In this document: piece by piece, positions 2,481 through 63,225 of the stretch
Layout of the letters: every line of letters begins with the position of its first letter
Position numbering within the stretch: position 1 is the stretch's first letter
Source of the DNA: Liolophura sinensis
Taxonomy: Eukaryota; Mollusca; Polyplacophora; Chitonida; Chitonidae
Assembly: GCF_032854445.1 (NCBI RefSeq)
Contig: NC_088297.1
Span: forward strand, 5,455,991-5,519,990
Length of the DNA: 64,000 bases
Direction of reading: 5' to 3'
Notes under the pieces: model-generated
Database searches by the model: none
What the model was told of the DNA's origin: nothing
The model's input: only the letters and a program-made list of their open reading frames with translations
Made by a program: the position numbers and the translations under genes

Positions 2481-5400
2481 GAAAGTGCTCATCAACATGG
2501 AAACCTGCACGTCAAAGGACAAAAACGTCCAAAAACAAAGTCTTGTTTGAATTTTTCTTGCTGACAAACAGCACTAAAAGTCACTCTCTGTGTTGATTGG
2601 TCCCCTAAAATGCTGATATCCTTTCCTTTTAACTTGAGCCATTCCTTTGGGTTTTTATAGCAAGGGGCCTTTGTGTAAGATTACTTGAAATTTTTTGGGA
2701 TGTTGCAGCTGTTGCTGATTTGCACCTGTTCATTTATTCACCACCACGTTTCTGAGGAAGAAAATATGTTAATATATCCGGGATTAGCTCAGTAGGAATA
2801 AGGCCTTGTTATATTTGATGTCATGTTACCATGGTTGCAGGTACTTGATGGGATTCTGAGATACGAGATATTGTTACGCGATTTTGTTTACAACGAGAGT
2901 AATACTTAACCACGTAATGGTTATATTATATGAAGGATGCATGGTTTAATGATGACAGTTTTTTGAATTGTTTTTTTTTTTTTTTTTTAATTTTTTTTGT
3001 ATATCATTAGATACATATGTCTCTGTTCTTGGCACTTCCTTTATAAACTTCATGAAACTTCACAATATTATTTCCACAGAAAAAAAACAGCAAAAGCTTC
3101 TAGAAACTTGATACATAAAGTTTCGTGAAAGTGAAACCAGTATTATGTGGCTTAGTGCTTCTTCTTATTTGGAAACATTGAAACGATTGTTATGGAAACA
3201 TATTTCTAAATGTACATATCTTCTACTTGTAGTTCGGTATTGTATGTCCGTGTGAAGAGACATTAGTGTGTGAATTGGATCATAGTGTCTATAACATGGA
3301 ACTATTTTGCAACGTTATTAGTGTCACGAGAGTTGTATTTTTGAAACGTCCTATACATAAGTCCAGATATATTTTCTGTCTGATGAAGAATCTCATTTAA
3401 TGATATTCTTTGTACATGGGAAGAATTTGTTAAGGAGAAAAATTTTAATATTTTACGAATGAATTGTTCATTTTCTGCATGTACATATTCTTCATTTGAT
3501 GTATAATTATTATATTCAGTTAATTATGAAACAATTAACATTTAATTTATATATTATTTTCTGCCACGCAGTTGCATCTTGTAAAGATGAGCAGCTAACA
3601 AGATGAATACAGCCACAGTACAGTATATTTCTATATATATATATATGTATATATGTTTGTGTATATTTTAGATGATGGTGTGTATGTATTTGAATATTGC
3701 TTTGTGTTCTTTATCCTTTTTTTTTTTACATACGTTATCACTATGTGTTCAGGCACTGTGAAATGAGCGCCATTATTCTGTCCATGTCTTAAGTGTACCT
3801 GTTCTTTTACTGTACACGATCAGTCCGTTAGGTTCATTGTCTACGACTGCTATATTATAAATGCCAGAAGAGTATAAGAGATTCCTTCATGTTCGATTAT
3901 ACACTGTATTAGGTTTATGCGGATATTTTTTAATGGCAGTATAGAATTCCATTCGATCATAAGCGCAGGCTTCTTTTGTGTATGGAGATAATTTTTTTAT
4001 AATCATTTTTTTTATAATCTTGTGTAAAGATAACACTCTGGGAATTACATACCTATTATGTATTTGGATATTTTATTGCGTGTGTAAAAATACATTCGGT
4101 CTGAAGTACATCCCTTAAGTATTTGTACAAAGTAGTATGACGGTATAAAACCCACAATGTGGGAATCACATTCCTGTTGCGCATTTTGTGGTAGTGTAAA
4201 AATTGCATTATGGGTAGGGGGGGAGGTATATTGTTATTAACCCTCTATGTACCTGTAAGTGGGAAAAACACTTAATTGAGATCTGTTAAAGTTTATATTA
4301 TTTCGCTCACCTCTATTTGAATTGTATGGATCAATATTTAATTGTATTCCCGCACCTAAGTTTGACCTTTGTCGGTGTGTGTTGTCTGTGGAGTTGTTCT
4401 TGTTTTTATGTTTTCTTTTGTATGTGACTATGTTTATGTGGTAAGTGGCAAGGCCGTGTACACTGACCACGTGTTGTGAAGGTCATTTCAAGGTCAAATG
4501 CTTGCCAGCTTATATATATATATATATTAACATGCTTTCCTGTGATATTTTTTGGACAGTTATACACGTCTGTTTGTATATGAAACTATTGCCCAACGTT
4601 GATACATATCATTTTAGAATCTCACACCTTTTAAGCTTTTTCTTTAATGTATTTTTGCATTGTTACACGGGACGGTTTTTGTGTTTAAAGGCATCCAAAG
4701 GGATTTGGAAATCAGTCAGATTTGTAAAATTGGAAAAAAAAATATGTTAATGAAAGCAGTTAATAGTCGCTATTGAAACTTATCATTTTAGCAATTTTTA
4801 CCCTGTCTTTTAGTTTTACTTTGACAAATAGCGCAAGTCTGCTTATGTCCCAAAGATTCCGTGTATTTTTGTGAGTGTGCAACAGATTTCATTGTCTGAT
4901 TATCTAGGTAACTTCATGACTTCAAGTTGAAAGAAGAAAACTGTTATTTCTGTGAAAGTCAACCATAGTACACGCAAAAGAAAAAAAAAGAAATAACTAT
5001 TCAGCCTAAGTCCAAACCAGCCTTAAGCAGCATTCTTATTTCAATAGAACTATCAGAATCTGGCAAAATGAGCAATTATGTCGAAATTTTAGTTTTGAAA
5101 TATATTATTTCTCAAACTTTTACCAAGTGCTAATGTTGGACAACGCCAACAGTTGACTTTCGTGCCGCGTGGAAAAATCTACATGTAGAACTATTTTCAT
5201 AGCGTACATACGCCATCCAAACCTGTGGTCAAACCACAACCGTTTTGAGTTTATTGCGACACACAATTTAGTTCCAGGTTGGGACGTGTTAAGGCTGCAC
5301 TGAACCAGGTAATGAGATTTGCTGATTATTCGGGACCGGTAGCTGATGGATGTTAGTTATGTTTGGTGTCAACAAACATTGACGTGTAGTTCGCTCGTGT

Positions 5401-5950
5401 ATTTCACAGACTGTGTTGATGTAGTTTTCGACGATTCATGTACATCGTATTACGCAAATTCAGTCTACATGGGTTCTTATTTAGGGTTGCATCAGATGTG
5501 GAGGTGCAAAAAAGACGAGTTTTTTTTTTTTTCAAAGTTCTTTGCACAAGAAAAACTTATTCATGACATTTTACGTTTGGTGCATTCACTTTTCCAGACG
5601 TTTTTCCAGTCTGTTCTGACATACGGTGTTATAATTGTCTTAGAAATGATCAGTGTTGCAAGCGTCTTAGATATTACCAGTATTTATCTGTGCAAACTTA
5701 AGCAGGAATGTGTGAATAAGCAATTTTATGCAAATATGTAGCAAAGCGATTTTAAATTGATGCGTCCGAGTTGTCTCCCTTGATAAAAGCACTATATGAA
5801 GATCCTTCCGATGTTCTGATTTTAAAATGGTTCTTCAATCTTGGTGGAAAATCTTATACGCATAACTATATAAACTTTTATTTTGTATAACATTTACTAT
5901 TTTTTTACCTTTATACCATTAATTCTATTTAGAATAAACATGCCAGTTTA
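2481..5950 (+). other. Long AT-rich 3' flank / possible long 3' UTR
   Basis: No supportable exon. There are poly-T runs near 2970 and 5520, short (TA)n runs near 3636 and 4512, and a candidate poly(A) signal AATAAA at 5933-5938 that could end a very long 3' UTR of the MAM/LDLa gene. Nearer signals cannot be excluded. Confidence 0.3.
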
Positions 5951-9520: not shown

Positions 9521-12500
9521 ATGGAATATAAGAGGAAAGCTGAGCAAGAAGCTCTTGTGTTGGTTCCATCGAAACGTTCTAAAAATGAACTGGTTTTATC
9601 ACAGAACTCGGACGGCGCTTTGTTAGCGGCGGTAAGTTTAGTTATTGTTGATGTTGGTTGAACAGGCTCACAAAGTGATCAATTTTCGTAACAGTAACTT
9701 ACACTGAGTAAAAACTGTCTGGACTAACACGAAAACTCTGGGTCCAACAAAATTTAATGGCTGAAATATCTCTTGCTTTGTAACTTTATTTCTTGTTTTC
9801 TAATTTGGAATCAGATTTATGATTGTAGTGATAATGGAGAAGAAACATAGTCACTTAGAGACATGGACATTTTGGCTACTGATTGAAGTTTGATGCTAAC
9901 AAGACTGCAGAGTAAATTTAATTATGGCTTTAAAGACGGTGTGATGCTTAATCTCAGGCATGGTGACAACTGAAGGCTTACCATGATAGTCTTCAGTGGA
10001 TTTTGTCTGCCTTTGAATTGACTGTCTTTTTTGATGTCTCACTATGGCATTGGTTGCTTCATCAGTGAGGCAGCGCTGAAGCAGGACTGCACCACCACCA
10101 TCACTTCCACAGTCACTGATGCAAGCAGACAGCATTGGGATATGGTATATCAAAACGTAAATGATACTAGGAACTTATGGAATGCCTGACAAGTGTATTT
10201 ACTTTCAGGCATGGTGACAACAGAAGGCTTACCATGATAGTCTTCAGTGGATTTTGTCTGCCTTTGAATTGACTGTCTTTTTTGATGTCTCACTATGGCA
10301 TTGGTTGCTTCATCAGTGAGGCAGCGCTGAAGCAGGACTGCACCACCACCATCACTTCCACAGTCACTGATGCAAGCAGACAGCATTGGGATATGGTATA
10401 TCAAAACGTAAATGATACTAGGAACTTATGGAATGCCTGACAAGTGTATTTACTTTCACTTTCATTTCCAGGATGGGCCACCCCGTACCTCTAACCTCCA
10501 GGCACCTATCATGCTTCTTCTTGGTCACGAGGGTGACATTTTCTGCGGGAAATTCTCACCTGATGGACAGATTTTGGCAACATCCGGCTTTGACAGACAA
10601 ATCTGTAAGATTTGCTCGTTATATCATATTGTACATGTCCACAAATGTGTTAATATTTCTTACCAAAAGAAATAAGAAAAAAAAGGTTAGGAATAGGATC
10701 TGTTCCAGGTTTGAGTAACAAGGGAGTTTTGACAGGCAGGTGGTTTCTCATGGGGGTTTCCCTTGGTGGATTCCCCTTATGGTTTACCTGTGGGCACTGT
10801 TTGGATAAGTCTTGACAGTCCTTCTGCAAGTGAAATAATTTTGAATACATATCCACTGCAGATTGCCCATGAAATGAATATAATGCTGTCAGATATACTT
10901 GATAGTTACTTTGTTAGTGTGTTGCAATCAGCATTACTGTATTATTTAAACTGATTGAGTATTTTTTGTATTAAATATTAATTGAAAAAATACAAATTGA
11001 AAAACTAAATTCCAGTTGTCCGTTCATGTTTTACAAAGGTTTAAATGAAAAATTGTAATTCGGCTATCATTATTGCCCACAAAACACTACATGAATATTT
11101 TTGAACTGCTAACATATACAGTTCAGTTTGTGCTTTCGGTGTATATACAGTAGATATTACAGTAGATGCAAGGCCATCCTTAAAATTTTTGTGCGTATTA
11201 GAAAAAGTGTAGGGTGGCATTGAATTGTTGGTTTTATTCATTTTAAGAGAAAAAAAAACTAAATCTTCTATCAAAATCCTGAAAAAGCCCTATTCCTGAA
11301 AAAAATGAAGGGCCTTTAATTTTTGAGGTTTGGTTGGGTTACACTGAACAAGTGATAGCCTTGTGCTTTCATTCACTGTAAAAATATGTCTTATGTTCTT
11401 TCTTTCTTTTAGATTTCTGGACAGTGTATGGTGACTGTGAGAATTTTGCGGTTCTCTCTGGTCATACAGGGGCTGTCATGGAACTCCAGTTCTCTACTGA
11501 TGGCAGGTAGGAAGGTGTTGCTTCCCCTTTAAAAAATAGAAAAAAAAAACAAGTTTGTATACCATAAATTTTGTTTGAAGTAAAATCCAAAGCATCAGGT
11601 TGGTAATCCTGATCACAAGAACAAATTTATGGTATTCATAATTTTCTACGCTATATTTGATAATGGATTTATTGTGATCTGATGATAATAATGTTTATAG
11701 TCATATTATTAAAAAGGAAGCAAACAAACAGATGTGAGAAACTAAAGATACAAATTTATGAATCAATAATTTATATATCTAGATTCTTGGTTGTACAACA
11801 GTGCCTGCTGAAGCACAGAGATGTTGCCATTTAGACAATAGCAGAATTTGATTCCTTAAAACTGTTCTGGTGTTATATTTTGTTAAACACATGCCTCTGA
11901 AAGATGACATCTTTTGTTTTGTTCAACAGCACGCTATTTACAGCAGCTACTGACAAAATAGTAGCTGTTTGGGACGTAGAGGTCGGGGCACGGATAAAGA
12001 AGCTGAAAGGTCATCAGAGTTTTGTGAACTCATGTCATCCTGCGAGGCGTGGCCCTCAGCTAGTATGTAGTGGTGGAGATGATGGTACAATCAAGGTGAG
12101 ATAATTCTGTATCATGACCATAACACAGTTAATTCCCTTGATCTGCATACCTATATTTCTATAAACTAATACCCCACTAGAGATTTTTTCCAACCATTAA
12201 TGGTTTTGAAAAGTAAAATAGTTTTGAATGGCATAAACCATAATCAAACTTAAAAAAGTGAAGTTGATAAATCCCAGGATTCCATTCAGACTTTTATTGC
12301 TGTGTATTTATTGTTTTTTTGAATGTATACTTTTCAGCTGTGGGACACAAGAAAGAAGGGCTGCTTACAGACGTTTCAGAACACCTATCAGGTGACAACA
12401 GTATGTTTCAATGACACAGCTGAGCAGATTATCTCGGGAGGAATTGACAATGACATTAAGGTAGAGATCAGTAGACATGCTGTATTACCACCTGCTTATA

Positions 12501-12733
12501 GCCCTCCACGAACCAGTGGGTACAGTTGTTCAAAAGTGAATTAGTACTAAAGCCACTATTAACTTTACCCTGGACTAATATCCCATTAGTGTTGTATGAG
12601 GCAAAGACTGGTGTTAAGCTTTAAGCCTTAACTTAAATACTTTTAAATTTTGAACTTTTAACTTTTAACTTAACTTTAAATACACAACCTAGGCATTGGG
12701 CCTTTATATGTCTACACCATTAAACCCATGAAA

Positions 12734-12764
<31 letters not shown>

Positions 12765-13922
12765 AAGTAAAGCAAACATAGCCCAGTTGCACAGTAAGTA
12801 TTAAGGTAAATATGGACCCCCAATATTGGTCACATTAAGGATGATCTTCTTAAATTATTTTCTTCACTGGCCTTAGTATAAATACTTCAAGTAGCTTTTG
12901 CTTGACAACTCCCCTGACAAGTAGCTATCGCTTGACAACTACTTTGACAAGCAGGTATTTGCTTGACAAGTACCCTGACAAGCAGCTATTGCTTGACAAC
13001 TACTTTGACAAGCAGGTATTTGCTTGACAAGTACCCTGACAAGCAGCTGTTGCTTGACAACTACACTGACAAGCAGCTGTTGCTTGACAACTACCCTGAC
13101 AAGCAGCTATTACTTGACAACTACCCTGACAAGCAGCTATTGCATGACAACTACCCTGACAAGCAGCTATTACTTAACTACCCTGACAAGCAGAGTTTGC
13201 TTGACAACTACCCTGACAAGCAGCTATTGCTTGACAACTACCCTGACAAGCAGCTATTACTTGACAACTACCCTGACAAGCAGCTATTACTTGACAACTA
13301 CCCTGAATGACTTAAAATTTCATTCATGACTAAGTTGCTCAGTATTCTGGTTGTACTGATTTTAGAAAGGTGCTTTGAGAGGTGTTTGGAAGGTATACCA
13401 GGAAAATGTCAACTTTAGCACCAGATGTATTATATCATGACATCTATTTGCCTCCATCAATTCTTTTTAGTGGTCAAATTTTTAGGTTGGTCAGGTTGTA
13501 TCATGACACTCAAAGGACTATGAGGAAAAAAAAAGAATTGTAGAGATAACTGTTGATGATCTCACCGTCCTCCTTTAGAATGTATAATAAACTTTCATTT
13601 GGTTGAAATTGTCTGGGATTATGTGCCTCTACATAGCTGAAGATGTCCTTACATGATGAGAGAAAGACGGAAATCAGCCTAAGGGAGGTAACTGTGTTTG
13701 ATTGTGTTGAGCAGGTCTGGGATTTAAGGAAAAATGATATTCTGTATCGCATGAGAGGACACGCAGACACCGTCACTGGACTGGAACTAAGCCCTGATGG
13801 TTCTTACCTTCTCTCTAATGCCATGGACAACACAGGTGAGTGCTGTCGCACTGTGAAAATTATGCTTTACTAATGTGTTATTACCACTGCCAAGAAACTT
13901 ATGATTTTACTGGCATTTATTG

Positions 13923-13961
<39 letters not shown>

Positions 13962-16702
13962 AGGAACGTTATGGCACAAGTTATTTAGGGATTTGGATGA
14001 AATTGTCTGTACAGGTTGGCCTTTTGCTAAGAACCATTCCATTAATTTCAAAGTTGTTAAGATTCTTCACCATTGGCAGATAGGGCAGAAATGTAGAGTA
14101 ATCTCCCTTGGTCTGTAGTGGGGAAATGTGTGCGATAAGCTATGATGACAGTTTGTCCTTTAGGAGTGTCTTCCAGTTGAACATTAAATTTTGTACAATG
14201 AAGTGTTTTGTGAAAATAATTGGATGGTTTTCTTAGGTAAGGTTTTGGGCTCTGTCATTTCAAAGGTTCCATTTCAGAAATATCATGTTCTTTGATAGTT
14301 TGTTGACTTTGAGTTCCCATGTGCTCTTTGTATGCAGTTCGGATCTGGGATGTGCGACCATTTGCTCCACAAGAGAGGTGTGTCAAGGTTTTACAGGGTC
14401 ATCAGCATACTTTTGAAAAGGTGAGATTTGTCATTTGTCCATCAGTTTTAACCACACTTCTAATGGTCTCAAGAGAGGGGCCTCCGTGGCTGAGTTTGTT
14501 AGCGCGCTAGCACAGCGTAGTGACCCTGGAGTCTCTCACCAATGCGATCGCTGTGAGTTCCTCTACGGTCGTAAGTGTGAAGGTCTGTCACCAACCTGCG
14601 GATGGTTGTGGGTTTCCCCCGGGCTGTGCCCGGTTTCCTCCCACCATAATGCTGGCCGCCGTCATATAAGTGAAATATTCTTGGGTACGACGTAAAACAT
14701 CAATCAAATAAATAAATAAATGGTCTCAACATTGTGAACACAAAAGTTTTGAATATAGAGTACAAACAAGGGTCTTGTGGGGTTATAAACAGACTGAAAA
14801 GAGACAGATTTGTAAAATCTAGGAGAGATTTGTAATACCATGCTACGGCCATCATTAAAAGCAAGTTTGTTCTGTGTATAACGACTAACCCTCCAAACAA
14901 GGGCCTTTGCATCAAAGTTTTTATTGTGATTCTGACGTTTTTTGTTCCAATTTTTCTCTCACTGGTAATTTTCTTTAAGTCCATGTTTTTCAATAACTAG
15001 AAAAGAAAACAGAATTCCCTACCAGTCTACCCATTTTTTTTTTTTTTTTTGATATGATTAGGTTATGCCTAACACATAATTTTTGAGAATGTTTTTTAAG
15101 CCTGTTTCTTTGGAGGGTACACAATCCCTGTCATATAGCTTGCCAGGGTAGAACATAAAAGATTTGTTCTGACATTCTTTCCTAATTCTTAGAGTTGTAA
15201 CTGTCTAATATATGGGGAAGGGGAGTAATATGACAGCATGGTTAAGAATTTCTTCTTTCCAAGGCACTGGTTCAATTCCAGTCTTGGACAATGAAGTTTG
15301 TAGATTCCACAGCCTCCATTGTTCTCTGTCCCTGAGGATTACTTTATTTTCTTCAAGCAATGACTCTCCGGAGGCGGTTTTCGTGCCAGTTCACCCTCAG
15401 TTATCATGAGACACTTTTGGTGCCAGTGATTGGCCAAGTTCATAAAGGCTTCTACAACATGGCTACTCGGAGTGAATTGTCCGTCAGTGCCATATCCCCA
15501 ATATTGACCTTCGTCTTCTGGGCTTTCAAAACTTTATCCAATTTTTTTACATATTTTTCTGTGATAACAGTGTCCTGCATCCTTTTTTCTATGTATATAT
15601 AGTAGCAGACTTCATGTTCACTTCAAACGACGGCCTTAAAAAGCAATCAACCAATCAAGCTTGATAAATGTGCTCTGCAGGACACTGGCATAGCGGTGAC
15701 CTGGTTGCCATATTGATACTTTAATATTTTCTTCAGCATTCTACCTACATGTAGCTTGCTTTGCAGTGGTTTTAATGTTGTATAAATATCCTTGTTGTTG
15801 TAGAACCTGCTACGTTGTGCGTGGTCGCCGGATGGCAGTAAGGTGGCAGCCGGATCTGGCGACCGCTATGTCTACATCTGGGACACGACGTCGCGACGAG
15901 TCCTAACAAGCTTCCCGGACACGCCGGATCCGTCAATGAGGTCGACTTCCATCCGTTTGAGCCCATTGGTACGTACAAGGTGTTTGCTGGTCAAAGTTCA
16001 GTTTTAATTGACGAATGCAAAAATACCGTATTTCACCTGCAATTAAACATTGTCCTACGACACATCTTGCTTGATTCTGATGGATTCATTCACCCCTTCC
16101 TAAAGGGCTGCTTTAGAGTGGTTTTTTTTTGAAGCTTGATCTTACCGGAAAAAATTAAGTGTTGGCATCAAAAGTATCATTTTAATCCCTGTGCTTCTAA
16201 AAATGCATTTTAGGTGAAATGTCTCAAAACCTATTTGAGTTTATTTGATTTGATTGGTGTTTTTTTATGACATACGTAAGAATATTTCACCAGCATTATG
16301 GTTGGAGGAAACCGGGCAGAGCCCGGTGGACCCACGACCATCTGCAGGTTGCTGTCAGACCTTCCCACATACAGCCAAAGAGGAAGCCAGCATGTGCTGG
16401 ACTTGAACTCACAGCGACAGCATTGGTGAGAGGGTCATTACGCTGAGCTAGAGTGCTAACTAACTGAGCCACGGTGGCTCCTCTCTAAACCACATGAAGG
16501 TTAATATTTCTTTGCATCCTTTTAGCTTGTCATTGTGACACGTAAAAGGTGAGAGAAAAAACCTGTTTGGGAGACAAGATGCAAAAGTAGAACTCTTTAA
16601 CTGTAAAGATGAAGGTGTACATTTTTTCATCTGTTTATTTTTCATTTTTCAGTGTCATCAGTGGGAAGTGACAAAAAAGTTTATCTGGGAGAGATTGAAT
16701 GA
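9521..16702 (+). CDS. SNRNP40: U5 small nuclear ribonucleoprotein 40 kDa protein, WD40 repeat (nine exons; one-base frameshift in exon 8)
   Basis: Component of the U5 snRNP and the spliceosome: a seven-bladed WD40 propeller that acts in the nucleus in pre-mRNA splicing. Exons: 9521-9631, 10472-10604, 11413-11506, 11930-12095, 12338-12460, 13715-13835, 14338-14420, 15804-15968, 16653-16702. All introns are GT-AG and junction phases match except through exon 8. The start is the ATG opening MEYKRKAEQEALVLVPSKR, matching the basic N terminus of the family. Hallmarks in order: LQAPIMLLLGHEGD (blade 1), SGHTGAVMELQF (2), AVWDVEVGARIKKLKGH (3), FQNTYQVTTVCF and ISGGIDNDIK (4), MRGHADTVTGL (5), IWDVRPFAPQERCVKV (6), YVYIWDTTSRR (7), end SDKKVYLGEIE. 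Length is about 348 residues if the missing base is restored, against 357 in human. Exon 8 is 165 nt where phase requires 166. Introns carry several tandem repeats and SINEs. Identity is very secure. Confidence 0.95.
9954..10458. repeat. Near-perfect 251-bp tandem duplication in SNRNP40 intron 1
   Basis: Copy one begins at 9954 and copy two at 10205 with the same order of bases: TCAGGCATGGTGACAAC at the start, ATCAAAACGTAAATGATACT near the end. Copy two stops about 12 bases before the exon 2 acceptor. The few differences suggest a recent duplication. Each copy leaves a 65+-codon stretch open on the minus strand, which I take as chance. Confidence 0.93.
12723..12766. repeat. AAAT microsatellite in SNRNP40 intron 5
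   Basis: A run of AAAT units about 40 bases long following a degenerate spacer. Confidence 0.8.
12896..13307. repeat. 30-bp minisatellite in SNRNP40 intron 5
   Basis: About 14 imperfect copies of a 30-bp unit built from CTTGACAACTACCCTGACAA plus GCAGCTATTG. The period is divisible by three, so long open frames (repeats of LDNYPDKQLL) arise on the + strand. These are not part of the gene, which splices from 12460 to 13715. Confidence 0.93.
13925..13963. repeat. TGTC microsatellite in SNRNP40 intron 6
   Basis: Uninterrupted TGTC/CTGT tetranucleotide run of about nine units. Confidence 0.9.
14477..14720 (+). mobile_element. tRNA-derived SINE, family A (full length)
   Basis: Starts GGGGCCTCCGTGGCTGAG; A-box region intact, internal deletion before the CTCTACGGTCGTAAG part, tail CGACGTAAAACATCAATCAA then AAATAAATAAA. 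It lies in SNRNP40 intron 7, upstream of exon 8. Confidence 0.92.
14721..15803. other. Remainder of SNRNP40 intron 7
   Basis: Poly-T run at about 15033-15050, otherwise unremarkable. A short segment near 15620-15660 resembles a decayed SINE tail, but I do not call it. Confidence 0.4.
15804..15968 (+). other. SNRNP40: SNRNP40 exon 8 with a one-base deletion (frameshift)
   Basis: The exon reads NLLRCAWSPDGSKVAAGSGD and on to WDTTSRRVL in the expected frame up to about 15903. From about 15909 the family sequence (LPGHAGSVNEVDFHPFEPI) continues in the next frame. One base is missing between roughly 15899 and 15910, where family alignment expects one more complete codon before KLPGH. The exon's downstream phase also demands 166 nt. 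Read literally, the frame runs on through exon 9 to a TAG at 16767-16769, replacing the last WD blade with an unrelated tail. An assembly or sequencing indel is the simplest explanation; a real allele is possible. Confidence 0.88.
16238..16482 (-). mobile_element. tRNA-derived SINE, family A (near full length)
   Basis: Inverted copy in SNRNP40 intron 8. The tail, GGAAACCGGGCAGAGCCCGG, tRNA-like B-box region and head (complement of GAGCCACGGTGGCTCC) are all visible; part of the tail-proximal region is deleted. With the copy at 14477-14720 it brackets exon 8 in opposite orientation. Confidence 0.9.
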
Positions 16703-19007: not shown

Positions 19008-21928
19008 CTATCTGGCACTGGTCCTTGTTCTTTTCAGATCTATCAGACTTTGTTCTAAACATTTCTGAGCTGGCTCAAAGTCCGGTTGTAGTTTCAGCGC
19101 TTCTGTTAAGTCTTCCACAGCCTGACTAAAACGTCCTGAAATTGAAAGAAAATGATTTCACTAGTTGACAGGGTTGATGCCTTGTAACAGCCCACTTTCA
19201 ACGAGATTTGAATGTTTCAGATGCCAGATAGAAAAGCCTAACCCAGTATTGTGACTCTAGGTAGACTACAACTTGACCTGGAATGTACATTAATGCTGAT
19301 GTGGATCAACCAGCGATCTGTCGTAAAATGTGAAATGGGTGAAACAGAAAACTGCTGGATTTCTTCTTTTCAGCTTCCATGTTTTAACATGGGTGAGGTG
19401 GGAAGACATAAAATCTGGACACCCAGCTCAAAAATGACTGTGCCATCGTAGAAGTGAAATATTCTTCAGTGGGGCACAAAACACCGATCAAAAAAAAGAA
19501 ACCAAGAAGGGCTGTTACACAGGAGTGTTTGTGAACCACAGTCTATCCTACCTCTTTGTTTTACAAGCACAACTATAAAGAAACTGTGATGTATTACAGA
19601 GAGTGAGTGAGTGAAAGAGTATGTGGAATGGACGACAGTCTTACTCTGTCTGTAGTGTGTCACAATCTCACCTAGTCTGTAGTGTATCACAGTCTCACTC
19701 AGTATGTAGTGTATCACAGTCTCACCCAGTCTGTAGTGTATCACAGTCAGTCCTAGTGAGTAGTGTATCACAGTCTCACCCAGTCTGTAGTGTGTCACAG
19801 TCTCATCTAGTCTGTAGTGTATCACAGTCTCACCCAGTCTGTAGTCTATCATAGTATCACGGTCTCATCTAGTCTGTAGTGTATCACAGTCTCACCTAGT
19901 CTGTAGTGTGTAACAGTCTCACCTAGTCTGTAGTGTATCACCGTCTCACCCAGTCTGTAGTGTGTCACAGTCTCATCCAGTCTGTAGTGTATCAGTCTCA
20001 CCCAGTCTGTAGTGTATCACAGTCTCACCCAGTCTGTAGTGTATCACAGTCTCACCTAGTCTGTAATGTATCACAGTCTCACCCAGTCTGTAGTGTATCA
20101 CAGTCTCACCCAGTCTGTATTGTATCACAGTCTCACCTAGTCTGTAGTGTATCACAGTCTCACCTAGTCCGTAGTGTATTAGTCTCGCCCAGTCTGTAGT
20201 GTATCACAGTCTCACCCTGTCTGTAGTGTATCACAGTCTCACCCAGTCTATAGTGTATCACAGTCTCACCCAGTCTGTAGTGTATCACTGTCTCACCCAG
20301 TCTATAGTGTATCACAGTCTCACCCAGTCTGTAGTGAATCATGCCCCTGTTGTGGAAGCTCATGTACATCGTCCTGTCCTGACCCAGACAGCAGGTGTAA
20401 TCCTCCGAAGCTTCGTCAAAATCCACCTGTAAATATTTCAGGTAACCTCGGTTGTTGTATGCTAGGGCCAGAAGTTTAGAGCTGAAACACACATCATAAT
20501 TCAGTACCACTGTAACACAAAAACTTCATTCTAATATGAAACACACAAAAATTATAACAGAAAAACATGCACCAGTAACACATTACAATTAGGCCACAAA
20601 AAACATGCACCAGTAACACGTTATAATTAGGCAGCAAAAACATACACCAGTAACACGTTATAATTAGGCCGCAAAAACATGCACCAGTAACATGTTATAA
20701 TTAGGCCGCAAAAACATGCACCAGTAACATGTTATAATTAGGCCGCAAAAACATGCACCAGTAACATGTTATAATTAGGCCGCAAAAACATGCACCAGTA
20801 ACACGTTATAATTAGGCCCCAAAAACATGCACCAGTAACACGTTATAATTAGGCTGCAACAACATGCACCAGTAACACGTTATAATTAGGCCGCAAAAAC
20901 ATGCACCAGTAACACGTTATAATTAGGCCACAAAAACATGCACCAGTAACACGTTATAATTAGGCCACAAAAACATGCACCAGTAACACGTTATAATTAG
21001 GCCGCAAAAACATGCACCAGTAACACGTTATAATTAGGCCACAAAAACATGCACCAGTAACACATTATAATTAGGCCACAAAAACATGCACCAGTAACAC
21101 GTTATAATTAGGCAGCAGAAACATGCACCAGTAACACATTATAATTAGGCCGCAAAAGCATGCACCAGTAACACGTTATAATTAGGCCACAAAAACATGC
21201 ACCAGTAACACATTATAATTAGGCCGCAAAAACATGCACCAGTAACACGTTATAATTAGGCCACAAAAACATGCACCAGTAACACAATATAATTAAACAT
21301 AATGTTAACGCAATAGATAACAAAAATACATGTACAATATTGAGTAAGACGGAACACATTACATGTACAGAAGTAGGCCCTACGCCTTAAACGAATGTAG
21401 GAGCCGATGATAAATTTTAAAACATAATAACACCTTTTCAGAGGTAATAATTCTATAACTCAAACACATATCTGCAGCACTGGTAGGTTACACAAAACAT
21501 GCACACTGTCAGTGTACATGTTTAAATCATTAATTTGCTTTATTATAAAATTAAGGCCTTAGATGGTTTCTATAATCTGGTCACATTGTACTATGTAAAG
21601 GTCCTTAGCAAAATCCATGACATACCTATACACTGCTAATATAGACTTATAAATAAAAAAGGTCGAAGACCATCGCAGAAATAATAAAAAAATCGACCGA
21701 AAGTCAATTTGAACTTTTGCCTGGTGACGAAATGTATCTCGACTAGAGATTTAACCCAGCACCGACTTACACATTAGTATTGCTTGAATCTTGTGTGACC
21801 GTGTTTTGTAAATACACCTGACATCCGTCAATCACCGAGGTGTAGCACTCTATCGCTTTGACTACTTGTCCTTCGTCCTCGAATCTCTTTGCTTCTGAGA
21901 GCGTTTCCGACAGTTTAGCTTCCTCCAT
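19008..21928 (-). CDS. TTC32: Tetratricopeptide repeat protein 32 (three exons, complete)
   Basis: Exons on the minus strand: 21928-21771 (MEEAKLSETLSEAKRFEDEG start), 20481-20324 and 19135-19008 (stop TAG at 19010-19008). Introns are GT-AG and every junction is in phase, giving 147 residues against 151 in human TTC32. Three TPR units fill the protein: about residues 8-41, 54-88 (LALAYNNRGYLKYLQVDFDE) and 91-125 (FHNRGMIHYRLG, then across the junction RFSQAVEDLTEALKLQPDF). The tail is basic (LKRTRTSAR). TPR proteins are helical scaffolds for protein-protein contacts; the precise role of TTC32 is poorly known. Intron 1 holds a 37-bp minisatellite. Intron 2 begins with a 27-bp minisatellite built from the exon 2 donor region. 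The gene is convergent with SNRNP40, about 2.3 kb from its stop. Confidence 0.92.
19446..19497 (+). mobile_element. SINE family A tail fragment in TTC32 intron 2
   Basis: GAAGTGAAATATTCTTCAGT followed by CAAAACACCGATCAAAAAAA matches the SINE 3' end; nothing upstream survives. Confidence 0.55.
19625..20340 (-). repeat. 27-bp minisatellite copied from the TTC32 exon 2 / intron 2 junction
   Basis: About 26 imperfect copies of a 27-bp unit. On the minus strand the unit reads ATACACTATAGACTGG followed by GTGAGACTGTG. The first (rightmost) unit overlaps the end of exon 2: the exon's last 16 bases, ATTCACTACAGACTGG, are the same motif, and the real donor GTGAGAC follows at 20323. Every well-preserved unit therefore repeats exon end plus 5' splice site. 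In frame it reads IHYRLGETV repeatedly; the frame stays open for six units past the exon and is then broken near 20177-20185 by a small deletion. Confidence 0.95.
20545..21290. repeat. 37-bp minisatellite in TTC32 intron 1
   Basis: About 20 copies of a 37-bp unit containing AAAACATGCACCAGTAACAC then GTTATAATTAGGCCGCA. Copies are highly similar, with C/A and G/A variants at a few fixed positions. Confidence 0.95.
21291..21764. other. Start-proximal part of TTC32 intron 1
   Basis: AT-rich intron sequence between exon 1 and the 37-bp array; nothing else visible. Confidence 0.4.
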
Positions 21929-60734: not shown

Positions 60735-63055
60735 ACTTTGCATAACGCTACGGCCTTTTCCACATGTTGACTAAAACACACTTAGCGTGTACGTAACGCT
60801 ATTGCCTTTTCCACATGTTCACTAAAACACACTTAACGTATACATAACACTATTGCCTTTTCCACATGTTCACTAAAACACACTTACCGTGTACATAACG
60901 CTATTGCCTTTTCCACATGTTCATTAAAACACACTTACCGTATACATAACGCTATTGCCTTTTCCACATGTTCACTAAAACACACTTACCGTGTACATAA
61001 CGCTATTGCCTTTTCCACATGTTCATTAAAACACACTTACCGTGTACGTAACGCTAGGGGCTTTTCCACATATTCACTAAAACACACTTACCGTGTACGT
61101 AACGCTATTGCCTTTTCCACATGTTCACTAAAACACACTTACCGTATACATAACGCTATTGCCTTTTCGACATGTTCACTAAAACACACTTACCGTATAC
61201 ATAACGCTATTGCCTTTTCCACATGTTCACTAAAACACACTTGCCGTTTACGTAACGCTAGGGCCTTTCCACATGTTCACTAAAACACACTTACCGTATA
61301 CGTAACGCTATTGCCTTTTCCACATGTTCACTAAAACACACTTACCGTATACATAACGCTATTGCCTTTTCCACATGTTCACTAAAACACACTTACCGTA
61401 TACATAACGCTATTGCCTTTTCCACATGTTCACTAAAACACACTTACCGTGTACATAACGCTATTGCCTTATCCACATGTTCACTAAAACACACTTACCG
61501 TGTACGTAACGCTAGGGCCTTTCCACATGTTCACTAAAACACACTTACCGTGTACGTAACGCTAGGGCCTTTTCCACATGTTCATTAAAACACACTTACC
61601 GTTTACATAACGCTAGGGCCTTTTCCACATGTTCACTAAAACACACTTACCGTATACATAACGCTATTGCCTTTTCCACATGTTCACTAAAACACACTTA
61701 CCGTGTACATAACGCTAGGGCCTTTTCCACATGTTCACTAAAACACACTTACCGTGTACATAACGCTATTGCCTTTTCCACATGTTCACTAAAACACACT
61801 TACCGTGTACGTAACGCTATTGCCTTTTCCACATGTTCACTAAAACACACTTACCGTATACATAACGCTATTGCCTTTTCGACATGTTCACTAAAACACA
61901 CTTACCGTATACATAACGCTATTGCCTTTTCCACATGTTCACTAAAACACACTTGCCGTTTACGTAACGCTAGGGCCTTTCCACATGTTCACTAAAACAC
62001 ACTTACCGTATACATAACGCTATTGCCTTTTCCACATGTTCACTAAAACACACTTACCGTATACATAACGCTATTGCCTTTTCCACATGTTCACTAAAAC
62101 ACACTTACCGTATACATAACGCTATTGCCTTTTCCACATGTTCACTAAAACACACTTACCGTGTACATAACGCTATTGCCTTTTCCACATGTTCACTAAA
62201 ACACACTTACCGTTTACGTAACGCTAGGGCCTTTCCACATGTTCACTAAAACACACTTACCGTATACATAACGCTATTGCCTTTTCGACATGTTCACTAA
62301 AACACACTTACCGTATACATAACGCTATTGCCTTATCCACATGTTCACTAAAACACACTTACCGTGTACGTAACGCTAGGGCTTTTCCACATGTTCACTA
62401 AAACACACTTACCGTGTACATAACGCTAGGGCCTTTTCCACATGTTCACTAAAACACACTTACCGTGTACGTAACGCTAGGGCCTTTTCCACATGTTCAC
62501 TAAAACACACTTACCGTGTACGTAACGCTAGGGGCTTTTCCACATGTTCACTAAAACACACTTACCGTATACATAACGCTATTGCCTTTTCCACATGTTC
62601 ACTAAAACACACTTACCGTGTACATAATGCTAGGGCCTTTCCACATGTTCATTAAAACACACTTGCCGTGTACATAACGCTAGGGCCTTTCCACATGTTC
62701 ACTAAAACACACTTACCGTGTACATAACGCTAAGGCCTTTTCCACATGTTCACTAAAACACACTTACCGTGTACATAACGCTAGGGCCTTTTCCACATAT
62801 TCACTAAAACACACTTACCGTATACATAACGCTATTGCCTTATCCACATGTTCACTAAAACACACTTACCGTGTACGTAACGCTAGGGGCTTTTCCACAT
62901 GTTCACTAAAACACACTTACCGTATACATAACACTAAGGCCTTTTCGACATGTTCACTAAAACACACTTACCGTATACATAACGCTATTGCCTTTTCCAC
63001 ATGTTCACTAAAACACACTTACCGTGTACATAACGCTAAGGCCTTTTCCACATGT
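60735..63055. repeat. 2.3-kb satellite-like array of a 51-bp unit
   Basis: About 45 head-to-tail copies of a 51-bp unit with TTGCCTTTTCCACATGTTCA, CTAAAACACACTTACCGTGT and ACATAACGCTA. Two subtypes differ by ATTGCC versus AGGGCC after CGCT; some units are 50 bp. Rare variants (TTTTCGACATG, CTTGCCGTTTACG) recur in the same order in different parts of the array, showing block-wise amplification. Confidence 0.96.
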
Positions 63056-63225
63056 TCGCTTTGACTATAGTCAAACCGAACATTATTTGCTGACCATAAG
63101 TGTTGCAATTGGGTACAGTAAAAAAATAATGCGTTGATTTTAGCCGAAAGTCTGTCGTGAACGTGAAAGAATCGAAACCTCGCGAATGGATAAACATATG
63201 CATCCTTGTTTTTGGGAGTCTTCTT

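Follow-up and report, generated by a model that had tools for sequence, protein, structure and literature searches.

A minisatellite spanning the exon 2/intron 2 junction of a TTC32-like gene in the chiton Liolophura sinensis, and similar arrays on other genes

The window (the whole 64,000-nucleotide stretch of Liolophura sinensis DNA analysed here) contains a TTC32-like gene and, tail to tail with it, SNRNP40 (Table 1). The TTC32-like gene lies on the minus strand and has three coding exons, with both introns GT-AG and a product of 147 aa; it is probably TTC32, as the first-pass annotation named it. Splicing of the phase-1 donor of exon 2 to the acceptor before 19135 (ttcag/GACG) restores the glycine in LG/RF. 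A Pfam search of the 147-aa product returned TPR repeats, with TPR_1 at 63.7 bits, and the best stretch crosses the exon 2/exon 3 junction (residues 95-125, profile positions 4-34). Reading frame, splice signals and homology to TPR repeats all support the predicted exon 2. A protein search of the whole genome with this product gave three matches (from 7 candidates), which are its own three exons; no retrocopy was found by this search, leaving one TTC32-like locus.

Table 1. Features of the window and of junction arrays found elsewhere in the genome. Plain numbers are window positions.
Feature	Location	Strand	Details
SNRNP40 (U5-40K, spliceosome protein)	9521..16699	+	tail-to-tail neighbour of the TTC32-like gene
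251-bp tandem pair	9954..10458	+	intron before SNRNP40 exon 2
Apparent frame change	~15900..15910	+	next-to-last located exon of SNRNP40; homology continues in a different frame
TTC32-like coding exon 3 with stop	19008..19135	-	acceptor TTTCAATTTCAG/GACG; spliced frame, own-genome protein search
27-bp minisatellite, 26 units	19635..20341	-	exon 2/intron 2 junction forms the first unit
Extra donors 6-25	19643..20164	-	16/20 keep GT; all predicted to give a premature stop; six out-score the authentic donor
2-bp deletion in sixth unit	20180..20182	-	longer exon 2 or retained intron would stop at 159-161 aa
Extra donor 5	20187..20189	-	GC (20188-20187) replaces GT; in frame, +45 residues
Extra donors 1-4	20214..20297	-	last exon-like bases 20297, 20270, 20243, 20216; GT; in frame, +9, +18, +27, +36 residues
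Authentic exon 2 donor G/GT	20322..20324	-	last exon base 20324, GT 20323-20322; matrix score 7.17
TTC32-like coding exon 2	20324..20481	-	end CACTACAGACTGG/GTGAGA; spliced frame, own-genome protein search, TPR match
37-bp minisatellite, 19.8 copies	20561..21295	-	TTC32-like intron 1
TTC32-like coding exon 1	21771..21928	-	ATG to donor ATGT/GTAAGT; spliced frame, own-genome protein search
51-bp array, 45 copies	60741..63057	-	40 donor-like sites
Annexin exon end (L034)	C1		unit 33 bp; PDB match 1.9e-19 to residue 37/38
Ankyrin-repeat exon end (L037)	C1		unit 31 bp; Pfam 2.8e-11 to residue 116/118
RRP7A exon end (L038)	C1		unit 26 bp; match 1.2e-10 to last residue
MTH1-like NUDIX exon end (L042)	C1		unit 47 bp; match 3e-20 to last residue
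Likely exon end (L040)			127-aa open frame; best Pfam hit 0.024, not significant; none in PDB
Likely exon end (L043)			short exon after good acceptor; no Pfam match
RanBP zinc-finger exon end (L025)	L025:7458-8709 (G000:C6:17007458-17008709)		92-bp unit, 13.7 copies; Pfam 9.3e-7 to residue 57 of last 60

The first-pass annotation had described the end of exon 2 and the start of intron 2 as the unit of a 27-bp tandem array, and this description holds. Tandem Repeats Finder (TRF) reports a period of 27 with 26.0 copies and a score of 1034, against at most 84 in 200 dinucleotide shuffles of 19300-20700. The unit consists of the last 16-18 bases of exon 2 plus the start of intron 2, so that the array spans the predicted exon-intron boundary, and each unit joins exonic to intronic sequence with a splice signal that is retained in many, not all, copies. 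A single silent base separates the exon's own copy from the consensus of the array. It had also been claimed that each good copy carries a donor identical to the true one; extra donors 1-3 share all nine donor bases with it, but not all copies are good, the donor GT being kept in 20 of the 25 extra copies. When 13 TRF rows were set against 12 exon stretches in the window (9 of SNRNP40, 3 of the TTC32-like gene), the sole overlap was this array. The assembly is a single one with a reported HiFi coverage of 14x (PMC11068029), and an assembly artefact might be suspected; the units, however, differ among themselves by substitutions and indels, which would not be expected from stutter, and similar arrays occur elsewhere in the genome, making such an artefact scarcely credible.

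The sequence of the exon 2 end probably passed from exon to intron, as previously proposed. The direction is likely because the end of exon 2 sits in an uninterrupted TPR motif, because the unit was found at one locus only, bar one weak match of 70%, and because arrays built in this way also adjoin other exons, the ends of which match known proteins up to their last residues. A genome search with a 163-base piece of the array, which skips very common words, gave five matches within the array itself and the weak match, on contig C14. The latter could be read as a trace of an older or foreign array, a dispersed satellite from which the exon end was captured. A closer inspection showed it to be a 27-bp array of a different unit at a different place, which disfavours a dispersed-satellite origin; moreover, the exon end belongs to the TPR motif, and the other arrays each carry the end of their own host exon. 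Capture from a foreign array is therefore most improbable. A search of the literature for SINE words found none.

The extra donors differ in their predicted coding outcome. Use of the true donor gives 147 aa, and extra donors 1-5 would give 156, 165, 174, 183 and 192 aa. Six extra donors had been thought to keep the frame; translation of the product of each donor reduces these to five, of which the fifth is GC. The small deletion said to break the frame near 20177-20185 was confirmed as a loss of 2 bp near 20181, at the end of the sixth copy. Beyond it, donors 6-25 would yield products that end at 159-161 aa, and a retained intron would end the product at 159 aa. The insertion had been placed inside the third TPR helix; it falls instead at residue 106 of 147, in the middle of the TPR_1 profile, which in the geometry of TPRs would be the turn that links helix A to helix B. 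Minor isoforms longer by multiples of nine residues are possible.

These outcomes bear on a functional reading in which the first copies are used as a ladder of alternative donors, giving +9, +18, +27 and +36 residue isoforms and a VNTR-length protein polymorphism. In human IFI6 the downstream units keep the frame, and here too the first downstream units (extra donors 1-4) carry GT and are frame-keeping, with no stop codon inside the unit of these in-frame copies. Two downstream repeat units of IFI6 are reported to serve as donors (PMC4526556). The identity of donors 1-3 to the true donor fits the same reading, as do the TPR_1 scores with one and four extra copies (58.8 and 60.0 bits), which stay near the original. 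However, the insertion falls within the TPR motif: with the extra copies the best stretch loses its first six profile positions, and an uninterrupted TPR comes from the first donor only. Moreover, the in-frame run stops after five copies, at the deletion.

The decay of the copies was compared along and within the units. Positions of exonic origin have changed about as often per base (25/400) as those of intronic origin (14/275), gaps not being subtracted. The donor GT of the copies is changed in 5 of 50 cells, against 39 of ~670, and so has no protection above the rest of the unit; these counts omit gaps and the 8-base insert of one copy. Divergence rises distally, from 1.0 changes per unit near exon 2 to 2.1 in the far units. 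Among unique changes, the six open-frame units show 4 silent to 1 replacement, compared with 6:13 in the distal units, a difference that is not significant (Fisher, p = 0.12). The 4:1 count drops one change that lies behind the 2-bp deletion, and with this change included the ratio becomes 5:1 (p = 0.056). Counting all changes gives 6:1 against 14:19 (p = 0.09), and removing the exon's own change gives 3:1 (p = 0.26). Against a neutral expectation of 0.27, the 4:1 silent excess has a binomial P of 0.02. There is thus a weak hint of coding constraint in the open-frame units, which counts towards the alternative-donor ladder, but the signal falls short of significance. Five of the eight junction arrays in the genome (see below) have periods that are not multiples of three, a further point against it. 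We consider such a ladder unlikely, and the length polymorphism, one of two possibilities raised in the first-pass annotation, is not supported as the leading idea, given 3/8 periods divisible by three, donor GTs that are not protected and a silent excess with Fisher p = 0.12.

Donor strength was scored with a matrix of the Shapiro-Senapathy type, which serves as a rough guide only. By this matrix, 18 extra donors score as high as the true donor or higher, 7 of them higher. In terms of U1 pairing energy, six copies slightly surpass the true donor (-9.6 vs -9.3), and one of the matrix's seven falls slightly short of it (-9.0). A scan from start to stop codon found two sites outside the array that reach 7.1; the real exon 1 donor falls below this value, and the matrix is for this reason a weak judge. 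The true donor is not marked out by local sequence, so that its position or the exon context would need to do so. Seven extra donors out-score it (six by U1 pairing), a point against the reading favoured below, in which position would need to override strength. The strong distal donors might alternatively form a regulatory splice switch, in which downstream donors yield stop-containing mRNA and tune the level of TTC32 via nonsense-mediated decay. All of donors 6-25 would indeed lead to premature stops; yet these donors are not conserved, GT being lost in 4 of 20, and the distal growth in divergence (1.0 to 2.1) runs the same way, so that a switch of this kind appears highly improbable.

We favour, with a probability of roughly three in four, a mostly neutral minisatellite seeded at the junction, of the 'mirage' kind, with the first donor normally used. 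An ordinary minisatellite, of a sort that fills about 10% of the 200 kb sampled (see below), would have chanced to begin at the exon 2/intron 2 junction. In the pre-mRNA, near-copies of the true donor follow it at intervals of 27 bases. The spliceosome would normally take the first, exon-adjacent donor, favoured by the exon length (158 nt) and the exon's own signals; because of this, the array could persist and its copies would be close to neutral. If the next donors were used now and then, minor isoforms would arise in which 9-36 additional residues separate the two helices of the last TPR, and donors past the fifth would produce stop-containing mRNAs. Low use of extra donors 1-4 is quite possible, since two downstream units are reportedly used in IFI6, though amphioxus mirages are reported to leave splicing undisturbed. 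A share above 5% of junctions for any extra donor, in at least one tissue, is conceivable but doubtful.

Junction-spanning minisatellites are a kind already known. In amphioxus, 'mirages' (Adh3, the globins BflGb6 and BflGb9, TnC, PGBD5) are described as minisatellite-like tandem copies across an exon-intron boundary, with units of 10-160 bp and splice signals retained in many, not all, copies (PMC3087553, PMC3902484). Mirages are also reported to be unstable in length. Regular splicing is reportedly undisturbed in the Adh, globin and TnC cases (PMC3087553, PMC3902484), and the authors of the globin study suggested that copies could serve as cryptic sites (PMC3087553). The array described here has in common with these the junction-spanning tandem copies and the partly kept splice signals; it differs in being molluscan, in having more copies than the globin cases and in recurring on several genes in small samples, and undisturbed splicing, reported for amphioxus, is a prediction for this array. 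Human IFI6 (G1P3, 6-16) likewise has a minisatellite with donor-bearing units after exon 2, two downstream units reportedly being used and giving three mRNA species (PMC4526556), whereas for the TTC32-like gene such use is a possibility. In human duplicated genes, minisatellites of ~30 bp at exon-intron boundaries are described as able to alter splicing (PMC2812944); there the copy number differs between paralogs in segmental duplications, whereas one TTC32-like locus was found in the chiton. The Rogers model of intron gain by tandem duplication of AG/GT sites, which has been extended to mirages (PMC3087553), starts from the same raw material, but no new intron is seen here. No report of mirages in molluscs was found in the literature, judged by title or the start of the abstract and by passages of one molluscan paper (PMC3862624). 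As far as these searches show, what is new is the presence of such arrays in a mollusc and their recurrence in small samples of one genome.

Recurrence was assessed in the window plus 20 blind 10-kb picks (200 kb), with a minisatellite defined as a unit of at least 10 bp in at least 3 copies. The blind picks hold 42 such arrays, which make up 10.3% of their length; in the window, 14 arrays make up 12.6%. Repeated donors were found on 12 array-strands among these 56 arrays. One of the ten that are neither the TTC32 array nor the 51-bp array of the window was examined further, and it joins a RanBP zinc-finger exon end, its unit comprising 75 exonic and 17 intronic bases with the donor GTAAGT (Table 1). 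In the whole genome, three AGGTRAG words 10-40 bases apart occur at 5598 places and the reversed pattern at 2233 (ratio 2.51); TGGTRAG triples occur at 5224 places against 3768, a raw ratio of 1.39. These counts are of places, not arrays. Single AGGTRAG words outside arrays also exceed their reversed control (70 vs 40 in 230 kb, 1.75), so that random seeding at real donors would account for much of the triple excess. The remaining excess is mild; since the triples exceed their control more than single words do (2.51 vs 1.75), seeding may not be wholly random.

The first 100 places listed, on C1 (0.16-2.94 Mb), form 15 donor-array clusters, all of which were examined. Four join exon ends supported by homology (L034, L037, L038, L042) and two join likely ones (L040, L043); in the other nine (L032, L033, L035, L036, L039, L041, L044-L046) no exon was seen on inspection of the upstream open frames. 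The annexin case has a weak point in that its exon stops 40 bp before the array as drawn by TRF, with the first good copy 88 bp on, and in the MTH1-like case the exonic share is ~6 bases and the first good copy lies 376 bp on. With the TTC32 and zinc-finger arrays, the eight junction arrays have periods of 27, 33, 31, 26, 47 and 92, plus 46 and 45 for the two likely ones. Because only three of these eight (two being only likely) are multiples of three, the nine-codon period at TTC32 looks like chance. Scaling 100 places in 15 clusters to 5598 places suggests ~800 clusters genome-wide, and 4-6 junction arrays in 15 clusters suggest a few hundred for AGGTRAG and this spacing alone, with wide error, the density of places at the listed end of C1 being ~3.7 times that of the genome as a whole; the single junction array met in the 200 kb of blind picks would point to a higher number, again with wide error.

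Since several other genes of the chiton bear arrays of this sort, the TTC32 array looks like one of a recurrent kind of repeat in this genome. A phenomenon known in amphioxus and one human gene is thereby extended to a mollusc, with a hint of being common there. A wider reading, which we hold tentatively and think rather less than an even chance, is that minisatellites of this type lie at the splice junctions of hundreds to thousands of chiton exons and are tolerated as the spliceosome, or exon definition generally, takes the first of many near-identical donors almost without error, with a minority, such as the frame-keeping TTC32 array, leaking into length-variable proteins. The choice of the spliceosome among identical donors is usually studied with few engineered sites. 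If the many-exon reading is true, the arrays would constitute a natural, genome-wide competition among identical 5′ splice sites. Known exons followed by ~10 to 60 similar donors occur here in several genes of a single animal, for which RNA-seq has been published (PMC11068029). Junction reads per copy would show how donor choice depends on distance alone.

Two other repeats of the window were considered as further mirages and rejected. The 51-bp array carries ACG/GTAAGT in most copies, and the open frame upstream of it is without a Pfam match. The 251-bp pair ends 12 bp before the acceptor junction of SNRNP40 exon 2. The 37-bp minisatellite in intron 1 of the TTC32-like gene lies ~80 bp upstream of exon 2 and does not overlap it. 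Elsewhere, several different minisatellites lie within 3 kb between apparent exons of one gene (L010:7-3123, on C14). For SNRNP40, nine exon peptides were located, and the one tested against PDB matches U5-40K over 55/56 residues; the apparent frame change in its next-to-last located exon may be a sequencing error or real.
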